From contig CAMZOI010000002.1 in the NCBI GenBank assembly GCA_947331495.1, positions 322,501 to 386,500 of the forward strand: a DNA stretch of 64,000 nt, read 5' to 3'. The number at the start of each line of letters is the position of its first letter. Position 1 is the stretch's first letter. Source of the DNA: Erythrobacteraceae bacterium Alg239-R51 (lineage in GTDB: Bacteria; Pseudomonadota; Alphaproteobacteria; Sphingomonadales; Sphingomonadaceae). Both the position numbers and the translations under genes were made by a program. Shown in pieces: positions 48,200-53,733 of the stretch. The notes below the pieces were generated by a model that searched no databases, was not told the origin of the DNA, and saw only the letters and a program-made list of their open reading frames with translations.

Positions 48200-48550
48200 C
48201 TACTCGTTGCGGGTGGCAATCCAGCTGCCGGCGATGACCAGGATCGCGACTGAAAGCCAGTACCAGGGGTGACCCAGGGTATACCAGGTGAAGACCGCTC
48301 CAGTTGCCATGGCACCGATAGCCATCGTCTTGGCACGGCGGCTGATCGCTCGGCGCTCGCGCCAGTCGCGTACCTGTGGCCCCCACGTGGGATGGTCGAG
48401 GATCTTTCTTTCAAGCTCCGGGCTCGATCGCGCGAAGAAATACACCGCGAGCAAGAGGAACGGGACCGTCGGCACGATCGGCAGCACGGCACCGACCGCA
48501 CCTAGACCGACGGAGAGCAAGCCACACGCGCGATAAATCTGGCGCTTCAC
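48200..48550 (-). CDS. DUF454 (YbaN-like) inner-membrane protein
   Basis: 116 residues from GTG 48550, directly abutting the sufE stop. DUF454 signature: GAVGAVLPIVPTVPFLLLAVYFFARSSPELERKI in outline, with HPTWGPQVRDWRERRAISRRAK, and a C-terminal membrane hairpin. Function unknown. Probably the last gene of the transcript that includes sufE. Confidence 0.85.
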   Translation of the reverse strand: MKRQIYRACGLLSVGLGAVGAVLPIVPTVPFLLLAVYFFARSSPELERKILDHPTWGPQVRDWRERRAISRRAKTMAIGAMATGAVFTWYTLGHPWYWLSVAILVIAGSWIATRNE

Positions 48551-48967
48551 TTACTCGGTCGCGATCCGTGCAGCATGCTCCTTCACCAGCGCGATCATGT
48601 TCGGCACGCCCTGGGTTCGGTTGCTGGACAATTGGTTCTTCAGATCGAAGGGCTCGAGCGCTGCGGTTATATCCATGTCGGCGACTTCACCCGCTGGCTT
48701 GTCCTGCACCGCAGCGATCACCAACGCTACGATCCCCTTAGTGATCGCGGCGTTGCTGTCTGCGAGGAAATGCAGCTCGTCAGTTTCGCCTGTCGGATAT
48801 ACCCAGACAGCGGCAGAACAGCCACGAACCAGCGTGGCATCGGTTTTGAGTGCGTTCGGCATTTCGTCCAGCTCCCGCCCCAGTTCGATCAAGAGCCGGT
48901 AGCGTTCGTCGCCTTCCAGAAATTCGTACTCTTCGGCGATATCGGAAAGGCTGCGCATTCCGGCCAT
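48551..48967 (-). CDS. sufE: SufE-family sulfur acceptor
   Basis: 138 residues. Acceptor Cys50 lies in LVRGCSAAVWV, within the SufE loop; other landmarks are YRLLIELGRELDEMP and DSNAAITKGIVALVIAAV. It takes persulfide from the SufS desulfurase for Fe-S assembly. It starts 14 nt after the last gene of the psp array, on the same strand. Confidence 0.93.
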   Translation of the reverse strand: MAGMRSLSDIAEEYEFLEGDERYRLLIELGRELDEMPNALKTDATLVRGCSAAVWVYPTGETDELHFLADSNAAITKGIVALVIAAVQDKPAGEVADMDITAALEPFDLKNQLSSNRTQGVPNMIALVKEHAARIATE

Positions 48968-48981
48968 GTAGGATACGCAGC

Positions 48982-49218
48982 CTACAAATCCACCCCGTTG
49001 GCGATAGCTTCAAGCTTCCTGATACGTTCCTTGAGGTCGGCCAGTTCTATTCGCGCAGCTCCGATTGGCGACCCTGTATCCCTTGGCGAGGGGGAGCTGT
49101 TTTCAAGTTCTTGGCGCTTCAGAGCCAGCCATCCATGCCAGCCTCGAAGAGCGGCCCCGCATACGATCGCAAGGCCAGTCAGAGCCGCGAGTGCGATGAT
49201 GAAAGTCGGTTCGAACAT
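48982..49218 (-). CDS. Psp-array small membrane protein 6 (most distal)
   Basis: 78 residues from ATG 49218; an ATG at 49227 is only 2 nt from GGAGG and an upstream frame to 49317 overlaps the neighbour. One N-terminal transmembrane helix (TFIIALAALTGLAIVCGAAL), a basic LKRQELENSS stretch and a final helix LADLKERIRKLEAIANG that matches the array's common LERI motif but lacks the terminal EIEALR. Probably the most diverged copy. Role unknown; see the PspA locus. Confidence 0.75.
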   Translation of the reverse strand: MFEPTFIIALAALTGLAIVCGAALRGWHGWLALKRQELENSSPSPRDTGSPIGAARIELADLKERIRKLEAIANGVDL

Positions 49219-49252
49219 TTCCTTCATGTCCTCCTTGAACCAGTCTGCGGAC

Positions 49253-49537
49253 TTATTTGTTTTGCTTGTCGCGCAGAGCCTCGATCTCGGCTGAGATACG
49301 GCGGGTTTCCGTCGCATCGAGAGAATTACCGTCGGTTGCGATGCGTTCGAGCACCGCGATACGCTCGCGCAGGGCTTCTATTTCGCGTTGCGTTTCGGGG
49401 TCGTTCCGTTCCACGAGACTTTCATTGCCTCGCTCGTCGGTCACGATACCCCGGTCGGTGCGGTGGCGTGATTTCGACATCTGTACGATGCCCCAGACCA
49501 CGATTGCCACGATAGCAACGAATGCCCACCCGCTCAC
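49253..49537 (-). CDS. Psp-array small membrane protein 5
   Basis: 94 residues from GTG 49537, GTGA-coupled to the gene before. One transmembrane helix (WAFVAIVAIVVWGIVQM), a polar linker and a coiled-coil ending ERIAVLERIATDGNSLDATETRR then ISAEIEALRDKQNK (shown in two parts). The C-terminal LERIATD...EIEALRD element is the hallmark of the array. Confidence 0.8.
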   Translation of the reverse strand: MSGWAFVAIVAIVVWGIVQMSKSRHRTDRGIVTDERGNESLVERNDPETQREIEALRERIAVLERIATDGNSLDATETRRISAEIEALRDKQNK

Positions 49538-49839
49538 GAGACGGCTCCAGTCCGATCTTCGACGGCGTGGATGTCACGCAGTTCCTCGATCTGCGAGGCC
49601 AGCGCGTGATTGCTGTCGGTAGCAATCCGCTCAAGAACCCGGACACGCTCTTCCATCCTGCTGTAATCGCCGTTGGTAAATCGCGCCTGGTCGGCTTTTG
49701 CCTGTTCGATCTCGCGCTTCAGTTCCAGCTTACGCTCGTCATGGGCCGTCTGCCGGCGGTGGATTGCCATGCCGGACAGAAACCCCAGCGAAGCGACGAT
49801 CAGGATGAAACCGAAAATGATCAGCAGATTGGGGTCCAT
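49534..49839 (-). CDS. Psp-array small membrane protein 4
   Basis: 101 residues, TGATG-coupled start. One transmembrane helix (LLIIFGFILIVASLGFLSGM), a long charged helix (RRQTAHDERKLELKREIEQA) and the common end ERVRVLERIATDSNHALASQ-IEELRD. The overall plan (TM, coiled coil, LERI motif) matches PspB. Confidence 0.8.
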   Translation of the reverse strand: MDPNLLIIFGFILIVASLGFLSGMAIHRRQTAHDERKLELKREIEQAKADQARFTNGDYSRMEERVRVLERIATDSNHALASQIEELRDIHAVEDRTGAVS

Positions 49840-50147
49840 CAGTTCGCCTCCTGCCCTTCACGCAGGCGATCGATCTCGTGCGTCAGGTGATAACCGCTGT
49901 CGGTAACAATACGTTCGACGTTGCCGAGCCGATCCTTGAGCGAGCCGAGTTCGGCGCGAAGCTCGGCATTTTCCTGTGTTAGCAGCCTGACCCGTTCGAC
50001 CGCCTGGTCATTCTTGGGATAGACTGCCTTGCCCCAGCTGTTTTCCAGCGGGTATCCGTTCCGGACGCGAATCCAGGTGTTGGCGACCCAGGCAAGGGAC
50101 ATGGCGATCACTCCGCCGATAATCGTTGTTTCGGTAATGAATTCCAT
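49839..50147 (-). CDS. Psp-array small membrane protein 3
   Basis: About 102 residues from ATG 50147 (TGATG overlap; a GTG one codon earlier is possible). One transmembrane helix (TIIGGVIAMSLAWVANTWI), then RVRNGYPLENSWG, a coiled coil and GNVERIVTDSGYHLTHEIDRL. The segment after the helix resembles member 2 (NWIRAKHGYSLEDEWG), so these two are recent duplicates of one another. Confidence 0.8.
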   Translation of the reverse strand: MEFITETTIIGGVIAMSLAWVANTWIRVRNGYPLENSWGKAVYPKNDQAVERVRLLTQENAELRAELGSLKDRLGNVERIVTDSGYHLTHEIDRLREGQEAN

Positions 50148-50482
50148 CACATGCGCTCCTTGCTTGCGGTGTCGAGTTGAACGCTTTTGTCAGGGGCGCG
50201 ATCGCGCAAAGCTTCGATTTCGGCTGCGACGGAATAGCCCTTGTCGGTAACAATTCGCTCGAGCACCTGCATCCGCTTATCGACCTTGCCGAGCAGTCCG
50301 CGCAGTTCATCGTTCTCGGCGCGCAACTCATTGGTTTCGACCGTGTTGGTGCGTTCGGTTTTCCCTCCCCACTCATCTTCGAGGGAGTAGCCGTGCTTGG
50401 CGCGGATCCAGTTGTTCACCAGCCAGCCGACGGTGCTCAATGCGATGATCGCGACGACGAATTCAGGCCCACCCCAGTCCAT
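50147..50482 (-). CDS. Psp-array small membrane protein 2
   Basis: 111 residues, TGATG-coupled to the previous gene. Transmembrane helix (PEFVVAIIALSTVGWLVNNW), HGYSLEDEWGGK, a coiled coil (ENDELRGLLGKVDKRM) and QVLERIVTDKGYSVAAEIEA-LRDRAP. The motif form LERIVTDKGY is identical to member 1. Confidence 0.8.
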   Translation of the reverse strand: MDWGGPEFVVAIIALSTVGWLVNNWIRAKHGYSLEDEWGGKTERTNTVETNELRAENDELRGLLGKVDKRMQVLERIVTDKGYSVAAEIEALRDRAPDKSVQLDTASKERM

Positions 50483-50790
50483 TATGCTTTTTCTCCATGT
50501 TTCATGTCGAGCGGAACACCCGTTCCGCGGTCCTCGACCGACCGTTGGTCGCGCAGGGCCTCGATCTGTGTGGCGACGTCGTAACCCTTGTCAGTTACGA
50601 TGCGCTCGAGCACGCGGACGCGGTCTTCGAGATCTCCGACCTGGTTGGCATATTGCGCGGCGCGCTCGGCCGTATCGGCGGCGGTGCTCTTGACCTGGAG
50701 TTCGGCCATCTTGTGCTGATGGCGCGTCCAGATCGCTAGCCCGCCGATGATGAACGGCGCGAGCGGTATGAGATAGGCCCATTCGAACAT
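50482..50790 (-). CDS. Psp-array small membrane protein 1
   Basis: 102 residues from ATG 50790, with GGAGG-type Shine-Dalgarno. Transmembrane helix (LIPLAPFIIGGLAIWT), a helical linker and DRVRVLERIVTDKGYDVATQ-IEALRDQRS. First of the six array members after pspC; lies 23 nt downstream of it. Confidence 0.82.
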   Translation of the reverse strand: MFEWAYLIPLAPFIIGGLAIWTRHQHKMAELQVKSTAADTAERAAQYANQVGDLEDRVRVLERIVTDKGYDVATQIEALRDQRSVEDRGTGVPLDMKHGEKA

Positions 50791-50813: not shown

Positions 50814-51191
50814 TCAGCGCAGCCGTTCGATTTCGGCGTTCAGCCGCGGATTGTTGCTGACGTAATAGGTTTCGACCTCGGCGAGGCGGCGGTCGACATC
50901 CTTCATCCGACTGCGGATTTCGCGCGCTGTGCGTTTCGGGTTCTGCCGGACACGCTGCCAGTAATTGCTCTCTTCATGATCGACGTAGAGATGCGGTGGC
51001 TTCTTGTTCAGCAACAGTCCGGCGATGAAGTAGATCGGAATGGTCATGCCGCCCGCCACGAAAGTAAGGGCGATCAGTCCCAGTCGGACCCAGAACGCAT
51101 TGACACCGGTATAATCCGCAACGCCCGAGCACACGCCCATCAGCTTTGCATTCTGCTTGTCGCGATAGAGAGTTGTGCGGGGGCTGTTCAC
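50814..51191 (-). CDS. pspC: Phage-shock protein C
   Basis: 125 residues from GTG 51191 (GTGA overlap with pspB). The PspC domain is clear: TLYRDKQNAKLMGVCSGVADYTG, WVRLGLIALTFVAGGMTIPI and an inner-membrane helix pair. The C-terminal soluble tail ends DVDRRLAEVETYYVSNNPRL-NAEIERLR, the same type of helix as in the array proteins. PspC senses membrane stress with PspB and controls PspA release of PspF. Confidence 0.92.
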   Translation of the reverse strand: MNSPRTTLYRDKQNAKLMGVCSGVADYTGVNAFWVRLGLIALTFVAGGMTIPIYFIAGLLLNKKPPHLYVDHEESNYWQRVRQNPKRTAREIRSRMKDVDRRLAEVETYYVSNNPRLNAEIERLR

Positions 51192-51484
51192 TGGGAAATT
51201 CCTTTCTTTTCGGCCATGAGCTGTTCGAGTTCGCGCAGCTGCTGGTTGTCCTGCTCGCTATCATGGACGAGGCGCGCGGGCTTGAAATCGGGATTGTCGC
51301 TGGCGACCAGTCGCTCGACCGTGTCCATCCGATCGTCGAGGCGCTTGGCGAGGTTGTAGAGCTCCTCGAGCAGGGCCTCGTCGTCGGTCGTGATGCTCGC
51401 GGAGGTCTTCCATTTCGTGATGTAGTGGAGCACGATCCAGGGAAGGGCGATGAAGATGGCTACGACTGCAAATACTTCTTCCAT
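51188..51484 (-). CDS. pspB: Phage-shock protein B
   Basis: 98 residues from ATG 51484 (GGAGG 10 nt upstream; an ATG at 51529 would read from the end of pspA). Transmembrane helix (VFAVVAIFIALPWIVLHYI), then TKWK and a coiled coil with LYNLAKRLDDRMDTVERLVA. The order and length match PspB. The extra C-terminal tail (about residues 68-98) is longer than in enterobacterial PspB. Confidence 0.9.
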   Translation of the reverse strand: MEEVFAVVAIFIALPWIVLHYITKWKTSASITTDDEALLEELYNLAKRLDDRMDTVERLVASDNPDFKPARLVHDSEQDNQQLRELEQLMAEKKGISQ

Positions 51485-51488
51485 TTGA

Positions 51489-52187
51489 TCAATCCTCCTT
51501 ATGCGGGCCGTTGCCGGTCTTTTCGCCAAGCACGCGTTTCATTTCCGCCAGTTCGTCATCGATTGCATCGGCCCCTTCGAGGGCGGCAATCTCGTCGGAA
51601 AGGCTCGGCTTGTCTGACGCGTCGGCTATGTTCAGTGCGTCGGCACGACCTTCGGCATAGTCGACCCGGCGTTCGAGCTGGTCGAAACGTGAAAGCGCTT
51701 CATCGGTCCGCTCGTTGGTCATCAGCGTACGCAGCTTTACGCGGTTCTCTGCGCTCTCGAGCCGCGCCGCGATGGCGGTCTGGCGACTGCGGGCTTCGCG
51801 CAACCGGTTCTGCAGTTTCTGGATGTCCTGCTCGTAGGCGCGCAAGGCGTCGTCGAGCACCGAAATTTCCTGCTTCAGCTGGTCGGACATGTCCGCCGCC
51901 TTCTTGCGTTCGACCAATGCGGCCCGGGCCAGGTCTTCGCGGTCCTTCGACAAGGCAAGCTGTGCCTTTTCGCCCCAGTCGCTCTGAAGCTTGTCGAGCT
52001 TGACCGTGTGGCGATGCATTTCCTTCTGGTCTGCAATGGTGCGCGCGGCGGACGCCCGGACCTCCACCAGCGTTTCCTCCATTTCGAGAATGATCATGCG
52101 GATCATCTTCTGGGGATCATCCGCCTTGTCGAGCATGTCGTTGAAATTGGCCGCGATGATATCGCGGGTACGGCTGAAAATTCCCAT
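51489..52187 (-). CDS. pspA: Phage-shock protein A
   Basis: 232 residues from ATG 52187, the canonical MGIFSRTRDIIAANFNDML start of the PspA/IM30 family, with GGAG 9 nt upstream. A long antiparallel coiled coil follows (AARTIADQKEMHRHTVKLDKL and others) with the amphipathic membrane-binding N-terminal helix. An open frame continues upstream without a stop to an ATG at 52409, giving 74 more residues; see findings. PspA stabilises the membrane and inhibits PspF. Confidence 0.93.
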   Translation of the reverse strand: MGIFSRTRDIIAANFNDMLDKADDPQKMIRMIILEMEETLVEVRASAARTIADQKEMHRHTVKLDKLQSDWGEKAQLALSKDREDLARAALVERKKAADMSDQLKQEISVLDDALRAYEQDIQKLQNRLREARSRQTAIAARLESAENRVKLRTLMTNERTDEALSRFDQLERRVDYAEGRADALNIADASDKPSLSDEIAALEGADAIDDELAEMKRVLGEKTGNGPHKED

Positions 52188-52405
52188 TAAAGGTGCTCCA
52201 CTGGAAAAAAAGTCCGATCCCTTCTTGTGCCGTCCGCCGTCGCGGGTCGGGGTGGGCGAACGGCGTAACCGCTCGACCTCCTGCTCGATCCGCGACAGGC
52301 TCGGTCCGGATTTGGAACGGTCCGAAGCGCCGTCGACATCGCTGCCTTGGGGACTGTCAGGGGAGCGACGCTCCGGACCGAGAGGATCGTGGTCGGGGGG
52401 CAGGG

Positions 52406-52558
52406 TCATGCGATCGCGGACTTCTGGTAAACCGCCATCGTCGGCGTGGGGCCGGTCACTGCGATCTGCGAGCTGAGTATGACCAGCGCGCTCGTCGCGG
52501 CAATGCTGGCGAGCGCGGCCTTCCCGAGCCTGGTGCGGAAAAAACTGCGATCGTACAT
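52406..52558 (-). CDS. Small membrane peptide, first gene of the psp operon
   Basis: 50 residues from ATG 52558. A basic start (MYDRSFFRTRLGKAALAS) leads to one hydrophobic helix (ALASIAATSALVILSSQIAV) and a short tail. It is the first coding region after the sigma-54 promoter (about 40 nt from -12) and its stop overlaps by ATGA an in-frame ATG that runs on into pspA. Function unknown; the position suggests a Psp role. Confidence 0.6.
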   Translation of the reverse strand: MYDRSFFRTRLGKAALASIAATSALVILSSQIAVTGPTPTMAVYQKSAIA

Positions 52559-52597: not shown

Positions 52598-52614
52598 CGC
52601 AAGGGGCGTGCCAA
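52598..52614 (-). promoter_or_regulatory. Sigma-54 (-24/-12) promoter of the psp operon
   Basis: On the minus strand TTGGCACGCCCCTTGCG matches TGGCACG-N4-TTGC exactly (GG and GC 10 nt apart). It faces the psp operon, 40 nt before the first start. The neighbouring gene encodes PspF, the sigma-54 activator of this operon type. Confidence 0.92.
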
Positions 52615-52663: not shown

Positions 52664-52688
52664 AGGGTTGGTTTTGATTGCCAACCCT
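52664..52688. promoter_or_regulatory. Candidate PspF upstream activating site
   Basis: AGGGTTGG and CCAACCCT form a perfect 8-bp inverted repeat with a 9-nt spacer. It lies 50-74 nt behind the -24 element of the psp promoter and 26-50 nt before the pspF start, so binding PspF there could activate the operon and repress pspF. Confidence 0.6.
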
Positions 52689-52713
52689 TGGTGGTTTTTC
52701 CTATATTGTGGTT

Positions 52714-53733
52714 ATGGAGCGGGAAAACCAGTTCATTGGCCAATCCGGCGCGTTTCTCGACGCGGTCGAACGGGCCAGTCGCGCCGCTCCGATGCGTCGA
52801 CCGGTACTGGTGATTGGCGAGCGGGGTACGGGCAAGGAACTGATCGCCGAACGTCTCCATCGCCTTTCGACGCGGTGGGACGAGCCGCTCGTTGTCATGA
52901 ACTGCGCCGCCCTTCCCGAAACACTGATCGAGGCCGAGCTGTTCGGCCACGAGGCCGGGGCTTTTACCGGCGCTACGAAGACTCGGGCAGGACGTTTCGA
53001 GGAGGCCGACAAGGGCACGTTGTTTCTCGATGAACTGGGTTCGCTGTCGATGGGTGCGCAGGAGCGTTTGTTGCGCGCGGTCGAATATGGAGAGGTAACG
53101 CGGATCGGTTCATCACGCCCGATGCAGGTCGATGTGCGGATCGTTGCCGCGACCAACGAGAACCTGCCAGACAAGGCTGCGTGCGGGAACTTCCGCGCCG
53201 ATTTGCTCGACCGTCTGAGCTTCGAGGTCATCACCCTGCCACCGTTGCGTGTCCGCGAAGGCGACGTCGAGGTTCTTGCCGACTATTTCGGGCGGCGGAT
53301 GGCGGCCGAGCTGGGCTGGGAGGACTGGCCCGGCTTCGCGGGTCATGTCGGTGAGCAGCTTGTCAACCACGATTGGCCCGGCAATGTGCGCGAGTTGCGC
53401 AACGTCGTGGAGCGGGCGATCTATCGCTGGGACAACTGGAGCGAGCCGATCGGTCACGTCCAGTTCGATCCCTTCGACAGCCCGTGGGCACCGATGACGC
53501 CGAAAACCCGCGCTCCGCAACCGGAACAGGGGAAAATGTTTGCGCCCGTTGCCAGCGACTTCGAGTCGATTGACGACTTGCGTGCTGCCGTTGATGAGCA
53601 TGAACGCGCAATTGTCGAGCATGCACTTGGCAAGCATCGCTGGAACCAGCGCCAGACCGCCAAGGCGCTCGGACTGAGCTACGACCAGCTACGCCATTGT
53701 ATCAAGAAGCACGGACTGACCGACGACGATTGA
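52714..53733 (+). CDS. pspF: Psp operon activator PspF
   Basis: 339 residues from ATG 52714. No N-terminal regulatory domain: the AAA+ domain starts almost at once, as in PspF. Walker A GERGTGKE (35-42), sigma-54 contact loop GAFTGA (82-87), Walker B LFLDELGSL and a C-terminal Fis-type helix-turn-helix (HRWNQRQTAKALGLSYDQL). It is divergent from the psp operon and is held inactive by PspA until stress. Confidence 0.93.
   Translation: MERENQFIGQSGAFLDAVERASRAAPMRRPVLVIGERGTGKELIAERLHRLSTRWDEPLVVMNCAALPETLIEAELFGHEAGAFTGATKTRAGRFEEADKGTLFLDELGSLSMGAQERLLRAVEYGEVTRIGSSRPMQVDVRIVAATNENLPDKAACGNFRADLLDRLSFEVITLPPLRVREGDVEVLADYFGRRMAAELGWEDWPGFAGHVGEQLVNHDWPGNVRELRNVVERAIYRWDNWSEPIGHVQFDPFDSPWAPMTPKTRAPQPEQGKMFAPVASDFESIDDLRAAVDEHERAIVEHALGKHRWNQRQTAKALGLSYDQLRHCIKKHGLTDDD

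Follow-up and report, generated by a model that had tools for sequence, protein, structure and literature searches.

Conserved array of small membrane proteins with PspB- and PspC-related tails in the psp operon of a family of Sphingomonadales

The psp operon, which safeguards the cell membrane under stress, continues in Erythrobacteraceae bacterium Alg239-R51, directly downstream of pspA-pspB-pspC, into six consecutive same-strand genes (o1 to o6) for small membrane proteins that fill positions 48982 to 50790 of the window (the whole 64,000-nt stretch analyzed, positions 322,501 to 386,500 of contig CAMZOI010000002.1), as a first-pass annotation of this DNA had described. Sequence comparisons show that these proteins have homologues in the psp system, that the array is part of the psp operon throughout the family, that its members form old and distinct classes, and that genes of this type co-occur with PspA. 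The reading that we favor, with slightly more than even confidence, is that the array is an ancient expansion of tails on different membrane anchors, the tails presumably docking onto PspA/PspBC.

On the minus strand, the operon runs from a sigma-54 type −24/−12 promoter (TGGCACGCCCCTTGC, 52599..52613, read from the sequence) through a leader gene (52406..52558), pspA (51489..52409; PF04012 E 3.7e-36 over residues 76-292; TIGR02977 272.4 bits, cut-off 242.95), pspB (51188..51484; TIGR02976 92.3 bits, cut-off 51.7; PF06667 74.6 bits, cut-off 25.6), pspC with its own C-terminal tail (50814..51191; TIGR02978 128.1 bits, cut-off 104), and o1 to o6 to a sufE-type gene (48551..48967; PF02657 E 3.1e-33), which is the usual downstream boundary of the array, followed by a DUF454 gene and a Pmp3 gene. 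The divergent sigma-54 activator gene, pspF, lies on the plus strand (52678..53733; PF00158 E 1.1e-60). Most genes of the array had been described as coupled, and four of the five junctions within it do overlap by 1 or 4 nt: o1-o2 by 1 nt (TAATG), o2-o3 by 4 nt (GTGA), o3-o4 by 1 nt (TGATG), and o4-o5 by 4 nt (GTGA), with gaps of 25 nt between o5 and o6 and of 23 nt between pspC and o1. Lying on the same strand and 3′ of the sigma-54 promoter and pspABC, the array has the placement of a member of a PspF/sigma-54 psp operon, and this layout suggests co-expression with PspA, PspB, and PspC. The −24/−12 pattern is present in the 700 nt preceding the core start of PspA at 109 of 161 loci, versus 27 of 880 random 700-nt stretches from the same loci. 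A mixed profile (A1, from o1 to o6, PspC, and PspB) has eight matches in the window's genome, every one of them in this operon. Elsewhere in that genome is a short second PspC-domain match that falls below the cut-off (G000:C1:2147451-2147624).

All on the minus strand, the array genes encode proteins of 102 aa (o1, class 1; 50482..50790), 111 aa (o2, class 2; 50147..50482), 103 aa (o3, class 3; 49839..50150), 101 aa (o4, class 4; 49534..49839), 94 aa (o5, class 5, with a longer loop after TD; 49253..49537), and 81 aa (o6, the short-tailed terminal class; 48982..49227, or 78 aa from the next ATG, the longest ORF form beginning at 49317, within o5). One N-terminal membrane helix and a coiled coil per protein had been proposed, and both can be read by eye in o1 to o6: each has one N-terminal hydrophobic stretch with K/R residues after it (in o6, a K precedes it as well), so that the proteins are probably oriented N-out/C-in. 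At their C-termini, o1 to o5 share a tail of the form R..VLERI(V/A)TD...EIE.LRD, and its core, E(R/K)(I/L)(V/A/I)T(D/E), is found in 438 of 482 array proteins. The C-terminal motif that had been attributed to all six proteins is thus complete in o1 to o5, whereas o6 ends half-way through it.

Protein o6 (ending ...RIRKLEAIANGVDL) lacks the motif's second half, its sequence terminating after ...LKERIRKLEAIANGVDL, and this short ending is kept in its relatives; it is, therefore, a separate class, and we rejected the possibility that it is a decayed copy. The o6 family is present in 108 of 113 loci (two repeat genomes, L144 and L169, included) and in 72 of the 79 genus representatives described below. 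By hhalign, o6 resembles the array (94.5%) and neither PspB (1.6%) nor PspC (0.2%), such that homology to the PspC-type tail is confined to the other classes.

Specificity of the tail was assessed with an HMM of 183 array genes that contained no PspB or PspC seeds, applied to 3,928 ORFs from 59 loci (E ≤ 1). The HMM matched 184 array genes, including its 183 seeds, along with 36 of 43 PspC-labelled and 34 of 40 PspB-labelled ORFs, and 33 unlabelled ORFs that were assigned to the o6 type by eye; within this set, no ORF of any other type was matched. In profile-profile comparison (hhalign), the array aligned with the orphan profile at 99.6%, with PspC at 94.0% (41 columns), and with PspB at 89.4% (22 columns), and the orphan profile aligned with PspB at 87.4% (63 columns) and with PspC at 84.9%. 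The controls all remained below 5%: PspA reached 0.7% against the array and 4.4% against the orphans, and reversed alignments at most 4.7%. At the sequence level, these comparisons show the o1-to-o5 tail to be homologous to the C-terminus of PspC and to PspB, beyond generic coiled-coil similarity; as such, the suggestion that PspB and PspC end in related helices is upheld.

Curated family models see little of this relationship, in that none of o1 to o6 passes a Pfam or NCBIfam cut-off. The PspB model TIGR02976 (cut-off 51.7) lists o1, o4, and o5 at 15.0, 11.5, and 11.0 bits, respectively, and not o2, o3, or o6; the PspB model PF06667 (cut-off 25.6) lists only o4, at 10.2 bits; and the PspC model TIGR02978 (cut-off 104) lists only o1 to o4, at 14.9 to 20.1 bits and up to the last model position. 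The PspC domain itself (PF04024) has no match in o1 to o6. When o1 is combined with 43 orthologues (alignment A5), the PspC model matches 42 and the PspB model 41 of the 44 rows at E ≤ 0.01 (o1 being below both cut-offs), but an IS1182 transposase model also matches 27 of the 44, so single weak model matches prove nothing. AlphaFold2 predicts one long helix for o1 (pLDDT 65.7) and gives a pLDDT of 60.4 for PspC, a low confidence that makes both models too weak for comparison. Sequence searches of the PDB recognized no relative with PspB as query (best E 1.3); with the A3 alignment, the best match was a potassium channel (E 0.0067), which we do not take as a relative.

Across the window's family, array genes (one to eight) occur in 77 of 79 genus representatives, each contributing one psp locus and together comprising those of the 96 genera with listed coordinates; the array thus belongs to the psp operon throughout the family. 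Six is no fixed number: copy number ranges from 0 to 8, with none in 2 representatives, one in 6, two in 10, three in 27, four in 16, five in 10, six in 5, seven in 2, and eight in 1. The psp and array genes are on one strand in 79 of 79 representatives, of which 78 have a PspF match, 78 a PspB match, and 72 a sufE gene within the fetched stretch. Psp genes without any array gene were seen in two representatives (L097 and L098) and on a contig of genome G117, whose single match to the o1-to-o5 profile is no separate array gene. That profile matches 183 of the family's 199 genomes, a maximum, because the profile picks up PspC tails as well; PspC matches are found in 89 of the 96 genera. The 80 named loci all bear array genes because they were chosen by similarity to array proteins, and they are labelled as Erythrobacteraceae genera, Sphingomonadales, Sphingomonadaceae, or (four of them) only as Alphaproteobacteria bacterium. 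A further 38 in-family psp loci (L081 to L119, without the 100-base stretch L112) were picked by hand; one locus of 207 bases (L276) was of no use, and the two repeat genomes were left out of the best-match and class counts. As in the window (48200-48967, minus strand), the sufE gene that follows the array often has a DUF454 gene behind it.

The array proteins are old paralogues. Among 482 array proteins from 114 loci, the best match lies in the same operon for only 4 of 479 and in another genome for the remaining 475, and we therefore reject recent tandem amplification, to which the divergence of the anchor halves is likewise opposed. Reciprocal best matches are concordant with gene order in 21,019 pairs and discordant in 1,508 (pairs that are not independent of each other), with last genes matching last genes in 4,970 of 5,157 cases and first genes matching first genes in 3,857 of 4,981. 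With class models seeded from the window's o1 to o5, classes 1, 2, 3, 4, and 5 are present in 106, 66, 97, 56, and 110 of 112 loci, respectively (13 proteins remaining without a class), and 336 neighbor pairs follow the window's order against 21 that do not, same-class neighbors being counted as in order. In the genus set, in which 11 proteins have no class, order is kept in 143 of 168 neighbor pairs of different class, so some rearrangement exists, and class 5 is the last array gene in 69 of 77 representatives.

The classes differ chiefly in their membrane-proximal halves. For 471 of the 482 proteins (11 were left out), mean identity over the membrane helix and linker is 0.27 to 0.62 within classes and 0.10 to 0.22 between them (0.35 for class 2 versus class 3), with a shuffled background of 0.10; in the tail, the corresponding values are 0.56 to 0.78, 0.33 to 0.53, and 0.18, the within-class values being higher partly by construction, as classes were seeded from the window. 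At the level of sequence identity, anchor and linker halves are shown to be near the shuffled background between most classes, with the tails in common. The first-pass annotation had spoken of repeated duplication of a PspB-like unit into interchangeable copies: the proteins are indeed paralogues with a PspB-related tail, but they do not form a recent series of copies, and the description "interchangeable" finds no support in the distribution of best matches, the divergence of the membrane and linker halves, and the mostly conserved order.

When the psp system is not in its on state, PspB holds the PspC tail. In the on state, the matching PspC tail binds PspA, as described in passages of the Escherichia coli and Yersinia papers (PMC3068692, PMC6003685): a putative leucine zipper at residues 77-98 of E. 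coli PspC is required for interaction with PspA (PMC3068692), a change at V125 of Yersinia PspC abolishes the PspC/PspA interaction (PMC6003685), and the matching change in E. coli, V105D, abolishes PspC-dependent signalling, according to data that PMC6003685 lists as its authors' own and in preparation. Residue 105 of E. coli PspC lies within ERYVTS, and a gapless alignment with ERIVTD of o1 places V105 at the V/A of the motif; the 77-98 segment stands just ahead of this position. Against E. coli proteins, the array profile scores 24.0 bits with PspB (the best of four test proteins) and a weak 8.6 bits with PspC. The V105 position is readable in 481 of 482 array proteins and is occupied by V in 279, A in 174, I in 15, and T in 13, which supports, as far as residue conservation can, a working tail in the array. 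The 38 family PspC proteins that were read have Y (29), V (7), or I (2) there, a distribution which shows, on the alignment, that PspC itself has changed at this position in much of the lineage; because the window's PspC carries Y, the contact reported for E. coli and Yersinia may be used in another way here.

Relatives of the tail genes are also found outside the family, for the most part away from the psp operon. Elsewhere in the order, the o1-to-o5 profile matches 31 of 46 genomes, and 30 of these have a separate tail gene (the match in the other, G485, is its PspC tail); of the 289 genomes in the class sample, 10 have a match: four belong to the window's own family, one is clear (family f146), and five are marginal. 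The gene encodes about 64 to 90 aa and is single or paired. In 18 of the 20 stretches fetched (one from f146, the other 19 from the order), no psp gene was detected in its neighborhood, nor was any constant neighbor seen by eye in 16 loci with unlinked genes. In other classes of the phylum, in genomes that we take to be those of Gammaproteobacteria, the tail gene lies away from the psp genes in 11 of 11 stretches. Four genomes of family f165 (G496, G528, G506, and G531) have one tail gene within the psp operon, where it follows a second PspC that has no tail, and G532, also from the order outside the family, has a second PspB-like gene directly behind pspC (L301 2171-2395). No array of this kind was present in the 20 genomes examined among the 28 PspC-matching class genomes outside the family; three of the 20 loci (L282, L291, and L292) have one extra tail-bearing small gene beside pspC. 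Two of these (L291 and L292, from the alphaproteobacterial family f51) also have a second PspB-like gene behind pspC, apparently a separate small expansion. The simplest reading of this distribution would be that an ancestral tail gene entered the psp operon and then multiplied.

Whether linked or not, these genes keep company with PspA. PspA is missing from all 12 family genomes that have no PspC match and no array match. In the order outside the family, all 30 genomes that carry a separate tail gene have PspA, versus 9 of the 16 that carry none (Fisher 2.1e-4, not corrected for ancestry), and the phylum sample gives 27 of 27 (14 of 14 with the window's family excluded) versus 77 of 272, likewise not corrected for ancestry; genome G462, whose match has pspA on one side and a weak pspC match on the other and is probably PspB, was counted as lacking a tail gene. 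PspC is found in 29 of the 30 tail-gene genomes of the order, the exception (G518) being 71% complete; since it co-occurs as well as PspA does, the association is with PspABC as a whole and does not distinguish the partner. Genome G040 (locus L099) provides one natural case in which tails are present on array proteins only: it has pspA, a tail-less PspC of 88 aa, and two array genes, one of which is its best match to the PspB model, below the cut-off, and no PspB reaches the cut-off.

Put as a sequence of events, the expansion that we favor would have enlarged a PspF-controlled psp operon across the family. Its ancestor would have been a small protein anchored by a single N-terminal membrane helix and continuing through a coiled coil into a PspB/PspC-type tail; genes of this sort persist, singly or in pairs and mostly unlinked, in the order's other families and in further classes of the phylum. 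Inside the psp operon, this ancestor would have given rise to about five old paralogue classes, each joining a membrane helix and linker of its own to a cytoplasmic tail similar to those of the others, plus the short-tailed partner o6. The array proteins may then serve as extra membrane docking sites for PspA and/or as competitors in the PspB-PspC tail exchange, drawing PspA away from PspF and onto the membrane; different anchors would answer different membrane conditions while acting on one PspA pool, and the short tail of o6 may suit it to a capping or silencing role. If docking holds, one protective protein may take orders from several sensors rather than from one. More tentatively, and with appreciable doubt, we propose a multi-receptor psp system in full, in which at least five old, non-redundant membrane proteins, with separate anchors but a common PspA-docking tail, would feed different membrane conditions into one PspA pool, o6 would be a negative partner, and the unlinked relatives would be psp outposts in other Proteobacteria.

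A different role for the same tails, and one that we regard as unlikely though plausible, is silencing: the array proteins, as partners of the PspB type, would bind to one another or to the tail of PspC and raise the response threshold, with no direct contact to PspA. Similarity over the whole length of PspB, as seen with the orphan profile, and the top rank of E. coli PspB among the test proteins agree with such silencing, as does a title cited in PMC5596341, in which cytoplasmic PspB-PspC interactions silence the Yersinia response; however, the o1-to-o5 tail runs past the point at which PspB diverges and into a PspC-like second half, and G040 keeps two array genes though its PspC has no tail to silence. 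Rather improbable is an action independent of PspA, with the array proteins as membrane effectors or scaffolds that form inner-membrane hetero-oligomers with PspB/PspC. Outside the family, the gene is single or paired and away from the psp genes in 18 of 20 stretches, so a multi-paralogue scaffold is not its basic function, even if tight gene coupling and old, co-maintained, distinct classes would suit a fixed stoichiometry and a parallel exists in Yersinia, where a passage of PMC9239133 has PspBC protecting against secretins without need of PspA. That these are generic single-pass coiled-coil proteins, alike in heptad pattern only and in the operon by chance, is very unlikely as the whole explanation: chance model matches do occur (ZapB with o3, XopP with 2 of 29 A3 rows, and the IS1182 transposase noted above), yet the specificity of the profile, the reversed and PspA controls, the recurrence of the core motif, the family-wide synteny, and the co-occurrence with PspA of unlinked genes all run counter to it.

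Compared with known psp components, o1 to o5 resemble PspB (TIGR02976/PF06667) in size, N-terminal membrane helix, coiled coil, R...LERI, and place in the psp operon, but they add the TD...EIE.LR half, several classes adjoin, and o1 to o6 all score below both PspB cut-offs. With the PspC tail (TIGR02978), which contains V105, the array shares R...(L/V)E..(V/A)T(D/S)...L..E(I/F)..L at the C-terminus, whereas its proteins lack the PspC domain. PspD, PspG, and PspE of enterobacteria are, like the array, accessory genes of the psp regulon; the Pfam and NCBIfam scans of o1 to o6 returned no match to any of them.

In the literature covered, which takes in few subscription papers, the array is described only as a phrase in PMC11237479 (mSystems 2024), whose supplementary tables and web application may list such loci. 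That paper mentions "PspB duplicates" and "PspC fused to a divergent C-terminal PspB", and so, like the array, extra PspB-like genes in the psp operon and a PspC tail related to PspB; each is given one phrase and one accession (AOL22920.1 among them), and the passages covered speak neither of an array, its classes, or their order nor of o6 or genes away from the operon. Passages of PMC9239133 propose that multiple PspC paralogues per genome may integrate different stimuli, but these are PspC domains, whereas the array consists of tail-only membrane proteins within the pspABC operon. A comparison of Qipengyuania reports psp genes in all strains, in the part seen (PMC9241875), and the introduction of PMC6003685 still describes the means by which PspB and PspC detect membrane damage as unknown. 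Nature supplies in the array a collection of tails with differing anchors, kept across a large family, that offers a way to separate sensing (anchor and linker) from output (tail), and its unlinked relatives lead one to expect that other Proteobacteria have psp components encoded away from the operon.

Two further features lie at the promoter-proximal end of the operon, where the leader gene is placed between the sigma-54 promoter and pspA. The leader encodes 50 codons (MYDRSFFRTRLG...) with one hydrophobic stretch, has no match in Pfam, and overlaps the next ORF by ATGA; an ORF of this type recurs in relatives, 82 of 159 loci fitting a loose pattern. The core of PspA starts at an ATG at 52187, and an in-frame N-terminal extension of 74 aa reaches back to an ATG at 52409 (52188-52409, minus strand). 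This extension is open in 81 of the 82 leader-bearing loci, with the 4-nt overlap with the leader in 73, and, if translated, it would stand ahead of the membrane-sensing N-terminal helix of PspA. Within it, upstream of the MGIF start, SRL.EEVERLRRSPTPT and GVPL/GAPL recur in relatives.
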